Below are positions 42,503 through 54,172 of a stretch of 64,000 nt of DNA, piece by piece. Numbering within the stretch: position 1 is the first letter of the stretch; every line of letters begins with the position of its first letter. The notes below the pieces were generated by a model, which saw only the letters and a list, made by a program, of their open reading frames with translations, did not search any database and was not told the origin of the DNA. The DNA comes from Pimelobacter simplex (GTDB taxonomy: Bacteria; Actinomycetota; Actinomycetes; Propionibacteriales; Nocardioidaceae), in NCBI RefSeq assembly GCF_024662235.1, contig NZ_CP096276.1, positions 3,348,001 through 3,412,000 on the forward strand. The letters run 5' to 3'. The translations under genes were made by a program, and so were the position numbers.

Positions 42503-43088
42503 CAGATACCTCCAAGGAATTTCGGTGTGATGGGTTCTCCCGCCATCCAGGGCGGGACGTCTGTACGCCGGCCGTGCTCCCGACCGGCGGAAAAGTGGGG
42601 ACGCGGGACGCGGGCGCGCCGAGAGAGGCAGGCACGTGGGGCGCGCCGACAAGGTCTGGCCGCCAGCGGTCCCCGCACCCAGCGAGCGTCAACCGCGAGG
42701 CCGGCAGCGCGCCGAGAGGCGCGCCCGGGGCAGCTTGCTGCCTCCCCCCGCGCCGAAGGCGCGCTCGGCCGCAACAAGACAGCGGAGTCCGCCCGGCCGA
42801 CCTGGTCTTCTGCCCCACACCCGCCTGCTGAGGCTCCCGCAGCTTGTTGCCACTACTGACCTTCTCCCGGAGCCGGACGTATCTGACGTCCGGACCGAGG
42901 CAGGACTGACGACTAAGCCGCACCGTGATCACCGGCCCGAGGGCCGGCTTACGTGGACCGTTTCGCCTGCGACTGGCATCGGCTTGCCACCCGGAACTGG
43001 GCTCGCGCCCGGCCTGGGCGACGCAACCACGGACCCGGGCGGACTCCATGACCAGACGTTAGTCCGTCGGTGGTGACGAAGAAAGCCT
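42503..43088. other. 586-bp intergenic region between comF and hpf, candidate leader or ncRNA
   Basis: No convincing protein gene. On the minus strand it holds, in order: a TAACGT hexamer (43056-43061) 6 nt before an ATG, a perfect hairpin CCGGCCC-GA-GGGCCGG (42932-42947), a second CCGGACGT-ATCTG-ACGTCCGG (42873-42893), and a GGCAGC/GCTGCC palindrome within the 75-bp repeat at 42701-42775, after which about 200 bp run to hpf. The ATG opens a 203-codon frame overlapping hpf, but its Arg-rich composition and mixed third positions do not look coding. Sequence does not match tmRNA, RNase P RNA or SRP RNA as I know them. Confidence 0.45.
42701..42775. repeat. Dispersed 75-bp repeat, copy A
   Basis: Begins CCGGCAGC and contains GAGAGGCGC, the palindrome GGCAGC-TT-GCTGCC and GCGCCGAAGGCGCGCTCGG. 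About four of five positions match copy B at 59463-59536 by eye, allowing three short gaps. Located about 315 bp beyond the comF stop. Confidence 0.65.
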
Positions 43089-49924: not shown

Positions 49925-51262
49925 ATGACCACCTCAGCCACCCTCACCGCCCTCTTCCCCGAGCACACCCCCGCCGACCTCCTCCACACCATCCGCAGCG
50001 GCGTCCGCAGCCGCGAGACGCTCGTCGTCGCCGAGTGGGACGCGATCGTCGCCTGGGCCGAGCGCCACGTCCTCGCCTCCCCCGAGGGCGCCGCCACCCT
50101 CACCGACGGCGTCATCGACACCGGCGTCCCCATCGCCGGCGACGGCGCCCCGCTGGTCAGCGACTACCACCTGATGGAGCTGGTCTCCGCGCTCGGCCGC
50201 TCCGCCCACGGCGGCCGCGCCTTCGTCGGGCGCGTCATCGAGTGCGCCTGGCGACTCCCCCAGGTCTACGCCGCGGTCGCCGCCGGACGGCTGGCGCCCT
50301 GGCGCGCCGAGCGGATCGCCGACCTCACCCGCCCCCTCTGCGCCGACGCCGCGGCCTACATCGACCGCCAGCTCTACGACGTCACCGCGGTCGGCTGGGC
50401 CCAGCTCGGCCGGCTCGTCGACGAGGCCGTGCGCCGCTTCGACCCAGCCGCGGCCGAGGCCCGCCGGATCGCCGCCGCCTCCCGCCGACGTCTCGACGTC
50501 GAGGAGGCCGACGCCGACGGCCTGGTCCAGGTCAACGGCACCCTCGACGCCGCCGACGGCCACGACCTCGACCAGGCCGTACGCCGCCGCGCCGTCCTCA
50601 TCGGCCGCCTCGGCAACGACCAGCCGCTCGAGGTCCGCCGCTCCATCGCCATCGGCGAGCTCGCCCGCCAGGACCTCACCCTCGACCTCGACGGCGCCCC
50701 CGGCCGCAAGGTCGTGCTCAACCTCCACCTGACCGACGACGCCGCCAACCCGGTGGCCCGCTGGGACGACGGCGCCTGCCCGGTCAGCCCGGCCCAGGTC
50801 CGCGAGTGGCTCCAGGTCCCGGGGACCTCGGTCGTGGTGCGGCCCGTCATCGACCTGGCCGACCACGTCCCGGTCACCTCCTACGAGGTGCCCGACCGGC
50901 TCCGCACCCGGGTCGCCCTGCGCGACCCGACCTGCCGCTTCCCGCACTGCACCACCCCGGCGGGCCGCTGCGACCTCGACCACGCGCTCGCCCACGCCGA
51001 CGGCGGCCCCACCTGTCCCTGCAACCTCGTACCGCTGTGCCGCCGGCACCACCGCGCCAAGACCTTCAGCTCCTGGCGCTACCTCGCGCTCGCGCCCGGC
51101 AGCTACCTCTGGCAGTCGCCGCGGCAGCTGCTCTTCCTGGTGGACCACCGCGGTACCCACGCGCTGGACCTCGATCAGTCCGCACCGCGTGCCCTGGCGC
51201 TGGCGTCGTGCCCAGGGCCGGGGCCGGGCGCGGAGCCCGGCTCCGGGGTGCCCGCGGCATGA
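49925..51262 (+). CDS. DUF222/HNH endonuclease-domain protein (13E12-type)
   Basis: A 445-residue protein with DUF222 helical region (about 1-320) and a C-terminal HNH domain: [25 protein letters not shown]... then [15 protein letters not shown], holding the His and Cys pairs expected for the nuclease fold. Such genes are strongly multiplied in Nocardioides, Mycobacterium (REP13E12) and relatives; function is unproven, possibly nuclease or mobile-element derived. The last 30 residues are Pro/Gly-rich and overlap the convergent MFS gene by 88 bp. Confidence 0.9.
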
Positions 51263-52521
51263 CGCGACCGGCCCGCCACCACGGCGACCACGACGACGAG
51301 CCCCAGGCCGGCGCTGGTCCACAGCGGTACGAGCGCCGCCGTGGTCGCGTCCCCGCCGACCGCGCTCAGCGCCCCGGACGCCGCGAGCGGCCCGACGACC
51401 GCCCCGACGTTGAGCGCGGCCGTGGCGTAGGACCCGCCCATCGTCGGAGCCGGACGCGGCCCCGCGGCCGCCGCCCCCAGCACTCCCGCCACCAAGGAGG
51501 TCCCGACCCCGAACGACAGCGCCCCCAGCACCACCACGAGCACCAGCAGGAGTACCCGCCACGCACCTGTCGTCGCCTGCTCCGCCACCACCGCCAGCGC
51601 GGCCCACCCGATCGGGACGGCGAGGGCGACCCAGGCGGCGACCGAGACGCGCACCGTTAGCGGCCCGACGGCGGCGCGGTCGACCACCCGACCCGCGATC
51701 GTGACGCCGGCGAAGGCGCCGACCCCGAACAGCGCCAGCGCGACCGGTACCCACAGCTCGCCCAGCCCCGCCGGCCCCACCACCACGGGCGCCAAGAACG
51801 TGAACCCCGCGAACGTCGCCGCATTGGCCAGCGCCGCCAGCACCAGCGTCCGGACCAGCACCGGGCTCCGGAGCGCCGCCAGCTCCGCCCGCAGCGGCAC
51901 CGCCTGGCCGGACCCCGCCGCACTCGCACCCGCGTCCGCGGCGGCACCCGGCGTTCCGGCCGGGTGCGGCGGTGCGGCCGGGCGCGGCAGCCCCCACGCG
52001 ACGCCCAGCGCCGCCGGCAGGCAGAGCAGCGCGATCGCCCAGAAGGTCGCGCGCCAGCCGAGCAGCGTGCCCACCAGAGCGCCGGCGGGGACACCGATCA
52101 CCGTGGCGAGCGTCGTACCGGAGAGAAGGACGGCCAGCGCCCGCCCCCGTCGTTCCGGCGGTACGAGCGTGGTCGCCGTGGTCAGGGCGACCGCGAGGAA
52201 GCCGGCGTTCGCCAGCGCCGCCACCACCCGGGTGGCCAGCAGGAGACGCAGGTCGGCGACGAGCGCGCCCGCCACGTGCGCGGCGGCGAACACCAGCACG
52301 AACCCGAGCAGGCTGCGCCGTGGCGGCCAGCGCCGGGCCAGCGCGGCGGTCAGCGGCGCGCCGACGACCATGCCGATCGCGAAGGCCGGCGTCGCCAGGC
52401 CGACCGCGGCCAGCGGCTGGTCGAGGTCGGCGGCGAGGTCCGGCAGCAGACCGGCGAGGACGAACTCGGACGTACCCATGGCGAACACCGCCAAGGCAAG
52501 GAGGTACAGCGGAAGAGGCAT
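51175..52521 (-). CDS. MFS exporter of the Cml/Cmx chloramphenicol-efflux type
   Basis: A 448-residue DHA1 transporter with twelve hydrophobic helices. The N-terminus MPLPLYLLALAVFAMGTSEF and GLLPDLAADL, plus motif A-like ALARRWPPRRSLL and antiporter motif region (GTTLATVIGVPAGALVG), match actinobacterial chloramphenicol exporters. Substrate is not certain. ATG with CTGGAG 5 nt upstream. The tail after helix 12 (ending ARARGAD) is low-complexity and overlaps the HNH gene. The 250 bp upstream hold a leaderless leader ORF and stem-loops (see below), suggesting drug-inducible expression. Confidence 0.88.
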   Translation of the reverse strand: MPLPLYLLALAVFAMGTSEFVLAGLLPDLAADLDQPLAAVGLATPAFAIGMVVGAPLTAALARRWPPRRSLLGFVLVFAAAHVAGALVADLRLLLATRVVAALANAGFLAVALTTATTLVPPERRGRALAVLLSGTTLATVIGVPAGALVGTLLGWRATFWAIALLCLPAALGVAWGLPRPAAPPHPAGTPGAAADAGASAAGSGQAVPLRAELAALRSPVLVRTLVLAALANAATFAGFTFLAPVVVGPAGLGELWVPVALALFGVGAFAGVTIAGRVVDRAAVGPLTVRVSVAAWVALAVPIGWAALAVVAEQATTGAWRVLLLVLVVVLGALSFGVGTSLVAGVLGAAAAGPRPAPTMGGSYATAALNVGAVVGPLAASGALSAVGGDATTAALVPLWTSAGLGLVVVVAVVAGRSRHAAGTPEPGSAPGPGPGHDASARARGAD

Positions 52522-52541
52522 CGAGACTCCAGGTGGGTATC

Positions 52542-52567
52542 CACATGCGCGTGCACGTGTGCATGCG
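52542..52567. other. 26-nt alternating pyrimidine-purine run, Z-DNA-prone
   Basis: Strict Y-R alternation for 26 nt (CACATGCGCGTGCACGTGTG and six more), near-palindromic around GTGCAC. It lies in the MFS leader, 9-34 nt upstream of the CTGGAG ribosome site. Confidence 0.6.
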
Positions 52568-52589
52568 GATGCGAGGACGGAACGAGGGA

Positions 52590-52692
52590 CGAGACAGGTC
52601 TCGCTCACCGCCGCGCGCCCACCACCGAGCGTGCCGATGCCTACCCGCGTCGGCGTCCGCGTCGGCTGCGGCCGACGTCAGGGCGCGGGTAG
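52590..52692 (-). promoter_or_regulatory. Nested stem-loops between leader ORF and MFS gene
   Basis: Outer stem CTACCCGCG/CGCGGGTAG (52641-52649 with 52684-52692), inner stem GTCGGC/GCCGAC (52661-52666 with 52671-52676), then a third stem CGAGAC/GTCTCG with 2-nt loop (52590-52603). In minus-strand RNA the 5' arm CGAGAC of the third stem could instead pair with GTCTCG at 52522-52527, directly before the MFS ATG and overlapping the last base of its CTGGAG. The outer stem begins 15 nt after the leader-ORF stop. This is the architecture of an attenuator; pairing is predicted by eye only. Confidence 0.55.
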
Positions 52693-52706
52693 ATCAGGTC
52701 AGGTAC

Positions 52707-52772
52707 TCAGTCGTTCAGGGACGTACGCCGGCGAGCGCACGCCCCGTCTCTGGATGCCTCGGGACTCGACAT
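52707..52772 (-). CDS. Leaderless 21-residue leader peptide of the MFS exporter
   Basis: ATG at 52772 opens a 21-codon frame (MSSPEASRDGACARRRT, SLND, stop) preceded at 7 nt by TAGGGT (52780-52785), the same spacing as at other leaderless genes in the window. The peptide has an Arg cluster, ARRR, near its end. It stands 185 nt upstream of the MFS ATG with nested stem-loops between. Similar short leaders govern cmlA, cat and erm genes through ribosome stalling; that role here is inference. Confidence 0.55.
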   Translation of the reverse strand: MSSPEASRDGACARRRTSLND

Positions 52773-52856
52773 GGCCCCCACCCTAGAGACGCGACCGCGC
52801 TCGGCCCACCGGTTTTCCACGCGCCACGACGAGCACCGGTGACCGATCATGGACGC

Positions 52857-53666
52857 ATGCCCCTGCCCCCGGACCGGGACCGGGAGCCGGACCCGCTCCG
52901 GCCCCAGCGCGACGCCGTCACCCGCCACTACGACGCCCGCGCCACCACGTACGACGACGGGCCGCTCCACCGCGCCCTGGCCGACACCATCGCGGGCCTG
53001 GTCACCGAGATCCTCGCCGCCGCCGTGGGTCCTCCGACGCGACCCCGGGTCTTGCTCGACGTCGGTACCGGCACCGGGCTGGTCCTCCGCGCCCTCACCG
53101 TCGCCTCCGCTCCACCCCAGCACGCACCCTCGCGCCCTCGCATCGTCGGCATCGGCGTCGACCTGTCCCCGGCCATGCTCCGCATCGCCGCCGCGGAGTC
53201 CACCGGCGCCGCCGCCTACCTCCGCGCCGACGCCACCGCGCTGCCCCTGGCGGACTCCTCGGTCGACGTCATCACCTGCGTCACGGCCCTGCACCTGCTG
53301 CCGTCCGCGGCGGCCGCCGACACCGCCATCGCAGAATGGCAGCGGGTGCTCCGGTCCGACGGGCACGTCCTCACCGCGACGTTCGCCCCAGCCCCGGCCC
53401 CGCCCACGACCCCGCCGCCGGCAGCCGCCCCCGCTGCAACCGCCCCGGCCGCAGCCGCCACCAGCATGCGCCGCCGCCACGACGCCTACGCCACCCCGGC
53501 CCAACTCGCCGCGGCCCTCGCCCCGCACGGCCTCCATCTCGACGACCACCGCACCCGTACCTGGACCGACGGCGAGCACCACCTCCTCCTCTGCCAGGCA
53601 ACGCCGAGCCCCCGCCAGGGTCCGCGCACCGGCCCCGTCCCCGCACCACCCCCGCCCAACCAGTAA
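52857..53666 (+). CDS. Class I SAM-dependent methyltransferase
   Basis: A 269-residue methyltransferase with motif I LLDVGTGTGLVLRAL, motif II region IGVDLSPAMLRIA, RADATALPLADSSVD and TCVTALHLL. The substrate is unknown. A Pro/Ala-rich insert (about residues 178-205) interrupts the C-terminal half. An in-frame GTG at 52839 is an alternative start; neither has a clear ribosome site. Divergent from the MFS leader promoter. Confidence 0.82.
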   Translation: MPLPPDRDREPDPLRPQRDAVTRHYDARATTYDDGPLHRALADTIAGLVTEILAAAVGPPTRPRVLLDVGTGTGLVLRALTVASAPPQHAPSRPRIVGIGVDLSPAMLRIAAAESTGAAAYLRADATALPLADSSVDVITCVTALHLLPSAAAADTAIAEWQRVLRSDGHVLTATFAPAPAPPTTPPPAAAPAATAPAAAATSMRRRHDAYATPAQLAAALAPHGLHLDDHRTRTWTDGEHHLLLCQATPSPRQGPRTGPVPAPPPPNQ

Positions 53667-53731: not shown

Positions 53732-54172
53732 ATGTCTGCCCCAGCCACCGGTCCCCGCGTCGCGATCGTGGCGGCTCGCTGGCACGCCGACATCGTCGAC
53801 GTCGCCGTCACCACGTTCACCGCCGAGCTCGAGCAGCGCGGCTACCAGGTCGACGTCGTGCAGGTGCCGGGGGCGTTCGAGATCCCCCTCCAGGTACGAC
53901 GCCGCGCCCTCTCGGGTGACTACGCCGCCGTCGCGGCGGCGGCGCTGGTGGTCGACGGCGGGATCTACCGCCACGACTTCGTCGCGTCCTCGGTGGTCGA
54001 CGCGCTGATGCGGGTGCAGCTCGAGACCGATGTGCCGGTGTTCTCGGCGGTGCTGACGCCGCACCACTTCCACGAGCACGACGAGCACACGGGCTACTTC
54101 CGCCGGCACTTCGAGACGAAGGGCCGCGAGCTCGCGACCGCGGTCGACGCGATCGTCCAGCTGCCTGCCTGA
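53732..54172 (+). CDS. ribH: 6,7-dimethyl-8-ribityllumazine synthase, RibH2-like
   Basis: A 146-residue lumazine synthase, which condenses ribulose-derived 3,4-dihydroxy-2-butanone-4-phosphate with the aminouracil precursor of riboflavin. VPGAFEIPLQ is the substrate-binding loop and the SVLTPHHFHE-type segment (here SAVLTPHHFHEHDEH) resembles the RibH2 class of Brucella and Mesorhizobium rather than the usual NGVLTVEN form. It stands alone, without ribA/B/D/E, so it may be a second copy or have another role. Confidence 0.88.
   Translation: MSAPATGPRVAIVAARWHADIVDVAVTTFTAELEQRGYQVDVVQVPGAFEIPLQVRRRALSGDYAAVAAAALVVDGGIYRHDFVASSVVDALMRVQLETDVPVFSAVLTPHHFHEHDEHTGYFRRHFETKGRELATAVDAIVQLPA

Follow-up and report, generated by a model that had tools for sequence, protein, structure and literature searches.

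In Pimelobacter simplex, a chloramphenicol-type exporter encoded in the window (the whole stretch of 64,000 nt that was analysed, to which all positions refer) is probably controlled by a ribosome-stalling attenuator, most likely of the translational kind. In the most likely reading, a drug-stalled ribosome is sensed by the leader and the folding of its RNA, which then turn the exporter on (Table 1). From its anatomy, the arrangement may be read as translational attenuation of the ermC kind, in which the sensor ORF is leaderless. The mRNA would begin at the leader ATG, as the spacing from the -10 element suggests, and the leader would therefore be translated without a Shine-Dalgarno site. When no drug is present, the ribosome would read through the leader, hairpin 1:2 would re-form and segment 3 would join segment 4, and this 3:4 pairing would mask the exporter Shine-Dalgarno sequence (the OFF state). 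Chloramphenicol, or some other inhibitor of the peptidyl transferase centre, would arrest the ribosome at codon 7, with the Ala or Ser at position 6 as the penultimate residue. The arrested ribosome would occupy segment 1 and so leave segment 2 available for segment 3, and 2:3 pairing would expose the exporter ribosome-binding site and allow the exporter to be made (the ON state). Both the direction of the switch and translation as the controlled step are predicted.

Table 1. Positions in the window of the exporter, the leader, the promoter elements and the RNA segments of the proposed attenuator
Feature	Position	Strand	Basis
MFS exporter, 448 aa, Cmx/CmrA-like, putative regulated gene	51175..52521	-	Pfam MFS_1 and NCBIfam NF033135
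Segment 4, CCCACC-T-GGAG, including the exporter Shine-Dalgarno sequence GGAG	52527..52537	-	Sequence and 3:4 pairing
32-bp palindrome (arms of 10 bp) in the stretch from segment 3 to the exporter Shine-Dalgarno sequence	52539..52570		Window copy only
Segment 3, predicted to pair with segment 2 (ON) or segment 4 (OFF)	52601..52624	-	Helix counts, RNAalifold, forced-structure energies
Linker hairpin (9-bp stem), not conserved	52641..52692	-	Sequence; linker unaligned; absent from consensus fold
Leader ORF, 21 codons, peptide MSSPEASRDGACARRRTSLND, start codon at predicted transcription start	52707..52772	-	Sequence and homologous leaders
Segment 2, predicted partner of segment 1 or of segment 3	52716..52737	-	Window duplex, 2:3 covariation
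Segment 1, 5' arm of the hairpin within the leader ORF	52734..52745	-	Window fold, 1:2 covariation, RNAalifold
Codons 6-7 (Ala-Ser), where chloramphenicol is predicted to stall the ribosome with codon 7 in the P site	52752..52757	-	Residue counts and published stall rule
-10 element TAGGGT, 7 nt 5' of the leader ATG	52780..52785	-	Sequence and family spacing
AAAA, 3 bp, GTGGGC (-35-like), putative WhiB7-like promoter arrangement	52804..52816	-	Sequence

The leader, its promoter, the RNA segments and the exporter all lie on the minus strand, with the exporter ATG at 52521-52519 and a distance of 251 nt from leader start to exporter start. The exporter matches Pfam MFS_1 (E 7.9e-36), and its top NCBIfam model is NF033135 Cmx/CmrA (chloramphenicol efflux); the protein is named here only Cmx/CmrA-like because its score of 392.3 bits sits under the 400-bit cut-off of that model. 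Encoded nearby on the plus strand are a protein with a methyltransferase domain (52857-53666) and a lumazine synthase (53732-54172; NF009084, score above the cut-off). In Rfam 15, no family reached the gathering score in 52519-52785, and the sole such match in the window is a raiA RNA (RF03072) at 42788-43043 on the minus strand (134.9 bits; gathering score 101.3).

A preliminary description of this DNA had reported a TAGGGT element 7 nt from the ATG of a 21-codon ORF, and each of these is present in the sequence, the element at 52785-52780, the ATG at 52772-52770 and a TGA stop that ends at 52707. The spacer between GTGGGC and TAGGGT is 18 nt in the window. Across homologous loci, the distance from the -10 element to the start codon is conserved, being 7 nt in 83 of 85 loci and 6 nt in two in a script search that sought 6-7 nt only; when 4-9 nt were allowed, 77 leaders were listed for the best 80 of 405 loci, and the distance was 7 nt in 76 of them and 6 nt in L020. 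This spacing fits transcription beginning at the leader start codon, i.e. a predicted leaderless mRNA.

Homologues of the exporter were sought in 58 related genomes, 11 of which (own genome included) gave a match at E <= 1e-40, and also in named genome contigs, from which the best 80 of 405 confirmed relatives were kept. Leaders were sought by a script that required a TAnnnT box 6-7 nt before a start codon, with a short related peptide following; it found one in 86 of 100 records, two of the 86 being the same window locus. Conservation of the leader ORF, which the preliminary description had proposed as a check, was seen: the script located a leader at 78 of the 80 named loci (best 80 of 405), and a 79th leader was recognized by eye. 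The proposed leaderless leader ORF before a Cmx-type exporter is therefore supported as a member of a conserved family, whose consensus, upstream of Cmx/CmrA-type exporters, is MSSPE[A/S][S/D]xxGAFGHAVSPLNH. The genera among the best 80 of 405 loci include Pimelobacter, Streptomyces, Micromonospora, Nocardia and Mycobacterium, as well as Actinomadura, Arthrobacter, Pseudonocardia, Williamsia and Lentzea, and the distance from leader start to exporter start, where both could be placed among these 80, is about 150-370 nt. No NCBIfam model matched three 21-residue leaders.

At 12 loci from the related genomes (L005-L011 and L015-L019), the script found no leader, and the exporters of these loci are 39-45 % identical, with the exception of L018 (53 % over 193 residues). 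Natural losses are also found. Among the 80 named loci, L051 has lost both promoter and leader, L041 carries a stop at leader codon 6, and L099 (Lentzea flava) has a leader by eye with no stop seen before the exporter and without segment 3; L125 retains a leader but shows no exporter motif on the stretch concerned. Among 25 plasmid records with a match, all seven copies inspected bear a leader of the family, namely those of Corynebacterium glutamicum pXZ10145, Rhodococcus fascians A21d2, Nocardioides, Micrococcus, Streptomyces, Microbacterium and Comamonas aquatica. The leader and cmx occur together on the plasmids of L100, L102 and L132, and an IS5564-family transposase adjoins them in L102 and L132. 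The actinobacterial leaderless leader is thus also present in a betaproteobacterium, Comamonas.

The association also appears when the leader itself is the starting point. Among 296 genomes of the class, 15 contain the leaderless-leader pattern with the first residues of the peptide, at 16 places in all, and 14 of these places precede a Cmx-type exporter, 12 with the exporter start within 400 nt and two in which its N-terminal motif lies about 460 nt away. The remaining two are L125, a relic with a leader and no exporter motif on that stretch, and L131, which runs on as a longer, other protein. The own genome holds 13 pattern sites; none of the 10 examined besides that of the window carries a -10-like TAnnnT in the preceding 16 bases (by eye), whereas the window's own site does. 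Single features of the window, such as the ORF or the stems, could arise by chance in such G+C-rich DNA; chance is ruled out because exporters of this one type are repeatedly preceded by the ORF, the -10 spacing and the N-terminal peptide.

Conservation within the leader was counted over an alignment of 86 rows (A1), related to each other by descent, from which L058 and L068 (long leaders), L099, L051, L012-L014, the non-carriers and later-fetched loci were excluded. Codon 4 encodes Pro in 86/86 rows (CCT 54, CCC 23, CCG 5, CCA 4) and codon 5 encodes Glu in 86/86 (GAG 74, GAA 12), while codon 3 is AGT in 47 rows, AGC in 37 and another in two, and codon 2 is TCG in 81, the five others being residue-changing. 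Over codons 3-5, the alignment thus indicates that amino acids are kept and codons drift. In the 3' half of the ORF, several loci use another frame over the same RNA (GLSVTPSAP etc.), and here it is apparently the RNA that is kept rather than the peptide. Five leaders have only nine codons, L012-L014 (of 18 related-genome loci) and the later-found L118 and L122; they keep MSSPE or MSTPE, then [A/S]-[S/D]-R, and the downstream RNA looks different by eye. As the N-terminus is kept despite different following RNA, it seems to be conserved as peptide, and residues 1-7 appear to be the conserved message of the leader.

The predicted stall site lies at the end of this conserved part. Residue 6 is Ala in 35 rows of A1 and Ser in 50 (85/86 together, with one stop), and the pairs at residues 6-7 are Ser-Asp in 48 of the 86 rows, Ala-Ser in 28, Ala-Ala in five, Ala-Val in two, and Ser-Ser, Ser-Ala and stop-Asp in one each. 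Residue 8 is Lys in 33, Arg in 31, Thr in 10, Glu in 10 and Asp in one, with one unread, and Gly was seen at this position in none of the 85 rows read. Chloramphenicol is described as arresting the ribosome best at a penultimate Ala and less at Ser or Thr, with arrest favoured by Asp in the P site and almost abolished when Gly occupies the P or the A site (PMC11832420). By residue identity, positions 6-7 (Ala-Ser or Ser-Asp) match this stall rule. The weaker penultimate Ser appears to be accompanied by the helpful Asp at residue 7, Ser6 being paired with Asp7 in 48 of 50 rows, which is not a number of events because the rows share descent. Where residue 8 is Arg, its codon (52749-52751 in the window) is AGG in 27 rows and AGA in four, never CGN (31/31 AGG/AGA); elsewhere, these codons account for 158 of 1537 Arg codons in the 86 exporters and 0 of 13 later Arg codons in the leaders. 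A slow AGG/AGA codon in the A site might lengthen the pause; descent from the common AAG codon is an equally simple explanation.

The RNA evidence comes from helices 1:2, 2:3 and 3:4, which were delimited by eye and then counted over A1. In the fold of the window, segment 1 forms a 12-bp hairpin with segment 2, and across the alignment 97.6 % of the cells of helix 1:2 are paired, with four pairs changed on both sides and 0/500 shuffles as high on that measure. Helix 2:3, which joins leader codons 13-17 to a stretch lying about 43-57 nt (L023) or 80-103 nt (window) before the exporter, is paired in 97.8 % of cells, with five both-side-changed pairs in 17 cells (0/500 shuffles). Shifting its partner by 1-3 columns lowers the pairing to 20-57 %, and L020 and the window have different letters on both sides at two counted 2:3 pairs, with pairing retained. 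Helices 1:2 and 2:3 are therefore conserved in the aligned sequences, with compensatory changes, and would be mutually exclusive, segment 2 being common to both. Support for helix 3:4 is weaker, with 96.8 % of cells paired, and one both-side-changed pair in six cells; by the number of changed pairs, 297/500 shuffles were as good. The 2:3 duplex of the window comprises 19 pairs (-34.5 kcal/mol); when the downstream sequence was shuffled, 18 of 1000 versions equalled this pairing with segment 2. Over the 86 rows, 68 reach p <= 0.05 and 38 reach p <= 0.01 (100 shuffles per row, 1000 for the window and L020). Run without a given structure, RNAalifold predicted 3:4 together with a 1:2 helix whose outer pairs were displaced by one position, a combination that corresponds to the proposed OFF state; the covariation contribution was small (-0.29), and both sides had changed in 3 of 19 pairs. 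The conserved stall-type residues and the covarying alternative helices support, at the sequence level, an attenuator driven by ribosome stalling, as the preliminary description had suggested.

In model calculations, forced-structure energies lean towards the attenuator, whereas the equilibrium model does not. Structures were forced, with loop costs, in 84 rows, the window and L020 being left out because their stem register differs. OFF was lower in the free RNA in 61/84 rows and ON was lower with a ribosome at codon 7 in 70/84, while 14/84 did not prefer ON; stalling moved the balance toward ON in 66/84 rows, by a mean of -5.1 kcal/mol. This test is preferred to segment energies alone, since the latter omit loop costs; by segment energies, OFF was favoured in 86/86 free RNAs and ON in 84/86 masked ones, and both states fit in 84/86. 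The two exceptions include the window (3:4 region -45.1, 2:3 -34.7), perhaps due to its extra palindrome. In the equilibrium model, the mean accessibility of the Shine-Dalgarno sequence is 0.28 in free RNA and 0.13-0.16 with a ribosome at codons 5-8, and it increases only at codons 9-11 (0.32-0.40); for the window, the values are 0.11 free and 0.07-0.13 at codons 6-8. A ribosome at P=7 increased accessibility in 26/86 rows and, as a test of the stall position, equilibrium accessibility gave no support for Shine-Dalgarno release at codons 5-8. Anatomy and covariation are weighed above the equilibrium model as the stronger evidence.

The same helices could serve other forms of regulation. Transcription attenuation, in which the 3:4 helix, or Rho loading on RNA left untranslated, would stop transcription short of the exporter and stalling would let RNA polymerase pass, as in whiB7/wblC, could use identical helix logic; actinobacterial whiB7 leaders consist of a uORF and a rho-independent terminator (PMC10727445), and Rho coupling has been described for a uORF of Escherichia coli (PMC12121999). 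This alternative is nevertheless considered unlikely. No terminator-like site was found in 52400-52900 of the window, TTTT occurs between leader stop and exporter in only 6/86 linkers and a run of at least 6 T in 7 in 1/86, which is evidence against an intrinsic terminator, and the 3' side of helix 3:4 is the Shine-Dalgarno sequence itself. Conservation of the RNA fold alone, with the ORF as an incidental passenger, would account for the 3' half of the ORF, which is kept as RNA and read in another frame at several loci, but it is highly improbable given that codons 3-5 vary almost only synonymously, that MSSPE/MSTPE and [A/S][S/D] survive in the five 9-codon leaders with their different-looking following RNA, and that the 7-nt spacing recurs in 76 of the 77 listed leaders.

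A transcription factor might instead dominate, either WhiB7 acting at the A-tract or a factor acting at the window palindrome, leaving the leader only to fine-tune expression. The WhiB7 motif is described as AT-rich and placed 3 bp upstream of the -35 (PMC10727445), and the window A-tract lies 3 bp upstream of a -35-like box, in the arrangement of WhiB7 targets. Of 82 promoters, 62 carry, around -50 to -39, an A-rich motif that was picked after the base profile had been inspected, compared with 3, 0 and 2 in three control stretches; WhiB7 control of the leader promoter, predicted from this motif, is a fair guess, no more. The motif as written is missing in 20/82 loci, the palindrome occurs only once in its own genome, and no palindrome-like insert lies at that place in the other 85 rows of A1, so dominance of a transcription factor is quite unlikely. 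The palindrome may be either an insert or an operator, and a transcription-factor layer can coexist with the attenuator.

The preliminary description had placed the switch elsewhere, proposing that a stalled ribosome would open an outer 9-bp stem and thereby alter access to the exporter start. Its structural elements exist: the perfect 9-bp stem (CTACCCGCG at 52692-52684 with CGCGGGTAG at 52649-52641) starts after 14 nt from the leader stop, its inner stem has 6-7 bp (CGTCGGC/GCCGACG), and CGAGAC can pair either with a local GTCTCG or with the GTCTCG directly before the exporter ATG. The stem is perfect in the window, but it is only an unconserved linker hairpin between segments 2 and 3, lying in a linker that does not align and missing from the consensus fold. 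Covariation of stems, also put forward at that stage, was found for helices 1:2 and 2:3. The CGAG/CTCG alternative near the start was likewise rejected as a conserved pairing, with 0 pairs changed on both sides family-wide. Opening of the 9-bp stem is thus the least probable of the explanations considered, and it is set aside as the switch in favour of 1:2 / 2:3 / 3:4, with segments 1 and 2 inside the leader ORF.

The proposed attenuator is related to several known systems. In ermC-type translational attenuators, four segments form 1:2 and 3:4 pairings that alternate with 2:3, and the ribosome-binding site lies in segment 4. The arrangement described here shares with them a leader ORF, segments predicted to alternate and a ribosome-binding site in segment 4, but differs in having a predicted leaderless leader, an exporter rather than a methylase, and chloramphenicol-type stall residues, and in occurring in actinomycetes. 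The chloramphenicol-inducible leaders of cmlA and cat encode another peptide and are preceded by a Shine-Dalgarno sequence. They likewise represent a short leader before chloramphenicol resistance genes, with a small penultimate residue in the stall motif; the present family would be set apart by its different peptide and its lack of a leader Shine-Dalgarno sequence. The exporter genes closest in kind are cmr of R. fascians and cmx of corynebacterial transposons, and the A21d2 and pXZ10145 plasmid copies bear the family leader. Work on R. fascians cmr from 1992 reportedly suggested inducibility and attenuation.

Among the literature titles and abstract openings listed, with most subscription papers outside the coverage, none was recognizable as a description of this leader. 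On a cmx-bearing plasmid, leader peptides are named for erm(X) and tet(W), and none for cmx, in the accessible part of the source (PMC3350403). A 'chloramphenicol resistance leader peptide' is mentioned in islands of Corynebacterium striatum, with no sequence given in the portion available (PMC10486106), and it could be the same leader. The whiB7/wblC leaders resemble the present one as actinobacterial uORFs that sense ribosome drugs via competing hairpins, yet they are described as acting through a terminator and controlling a regulator (PMC10727445), whereas here no terminator was found and a transporter would be controlled. The preliminary description had held a leaderless leader ORF to be unusual in such a role, a view that is not supported: in Streptomyces lividans, 7 of 8 leader peptides of amino-acid, tRNA-synthetase and methionine-import genes are reported to be leaderless (PMC8079986). 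Those leaders are likewise leaderless ORFs in attenuators, but according to the available part of that report they depend on amino acids and not on drugs, with no exporter leader among the tabulated eight. The kind of switch is therefore known, while its leaderless chloramphenicol-exporter version and its wide spread look new. More tentatively, the family might represent an ancient, actinomycete-wide sensor that combines three layers, namely a WhiB7-type promoter, a leaderless leader in which residues 6-7 (Ala-Ser or Ser-Asp) form a minimal stall code for chloramphenicol, often with a rare AGG/AGA codon next in the A site, and the 2:3 switch, and that moves with cmx on mobile elements, even into a Comamonas plasmid.

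If the proposed attenuator operates as predicted, chloramphenicol efflux in actinomycetes, both intrinsic and mobile, would share one ribosome switch that can be read from sequence. The natural leader set offers a ready test of the chloramphenicol context rule, evolution having retained both Ala-Ser and Ser-Asp where stalling is predicted. The family would also provide a clean case of drug-induced stalling on leaderless mRNA, as well as a route to such sensors in G+C-rich genomes, where stem-loops alone say little.
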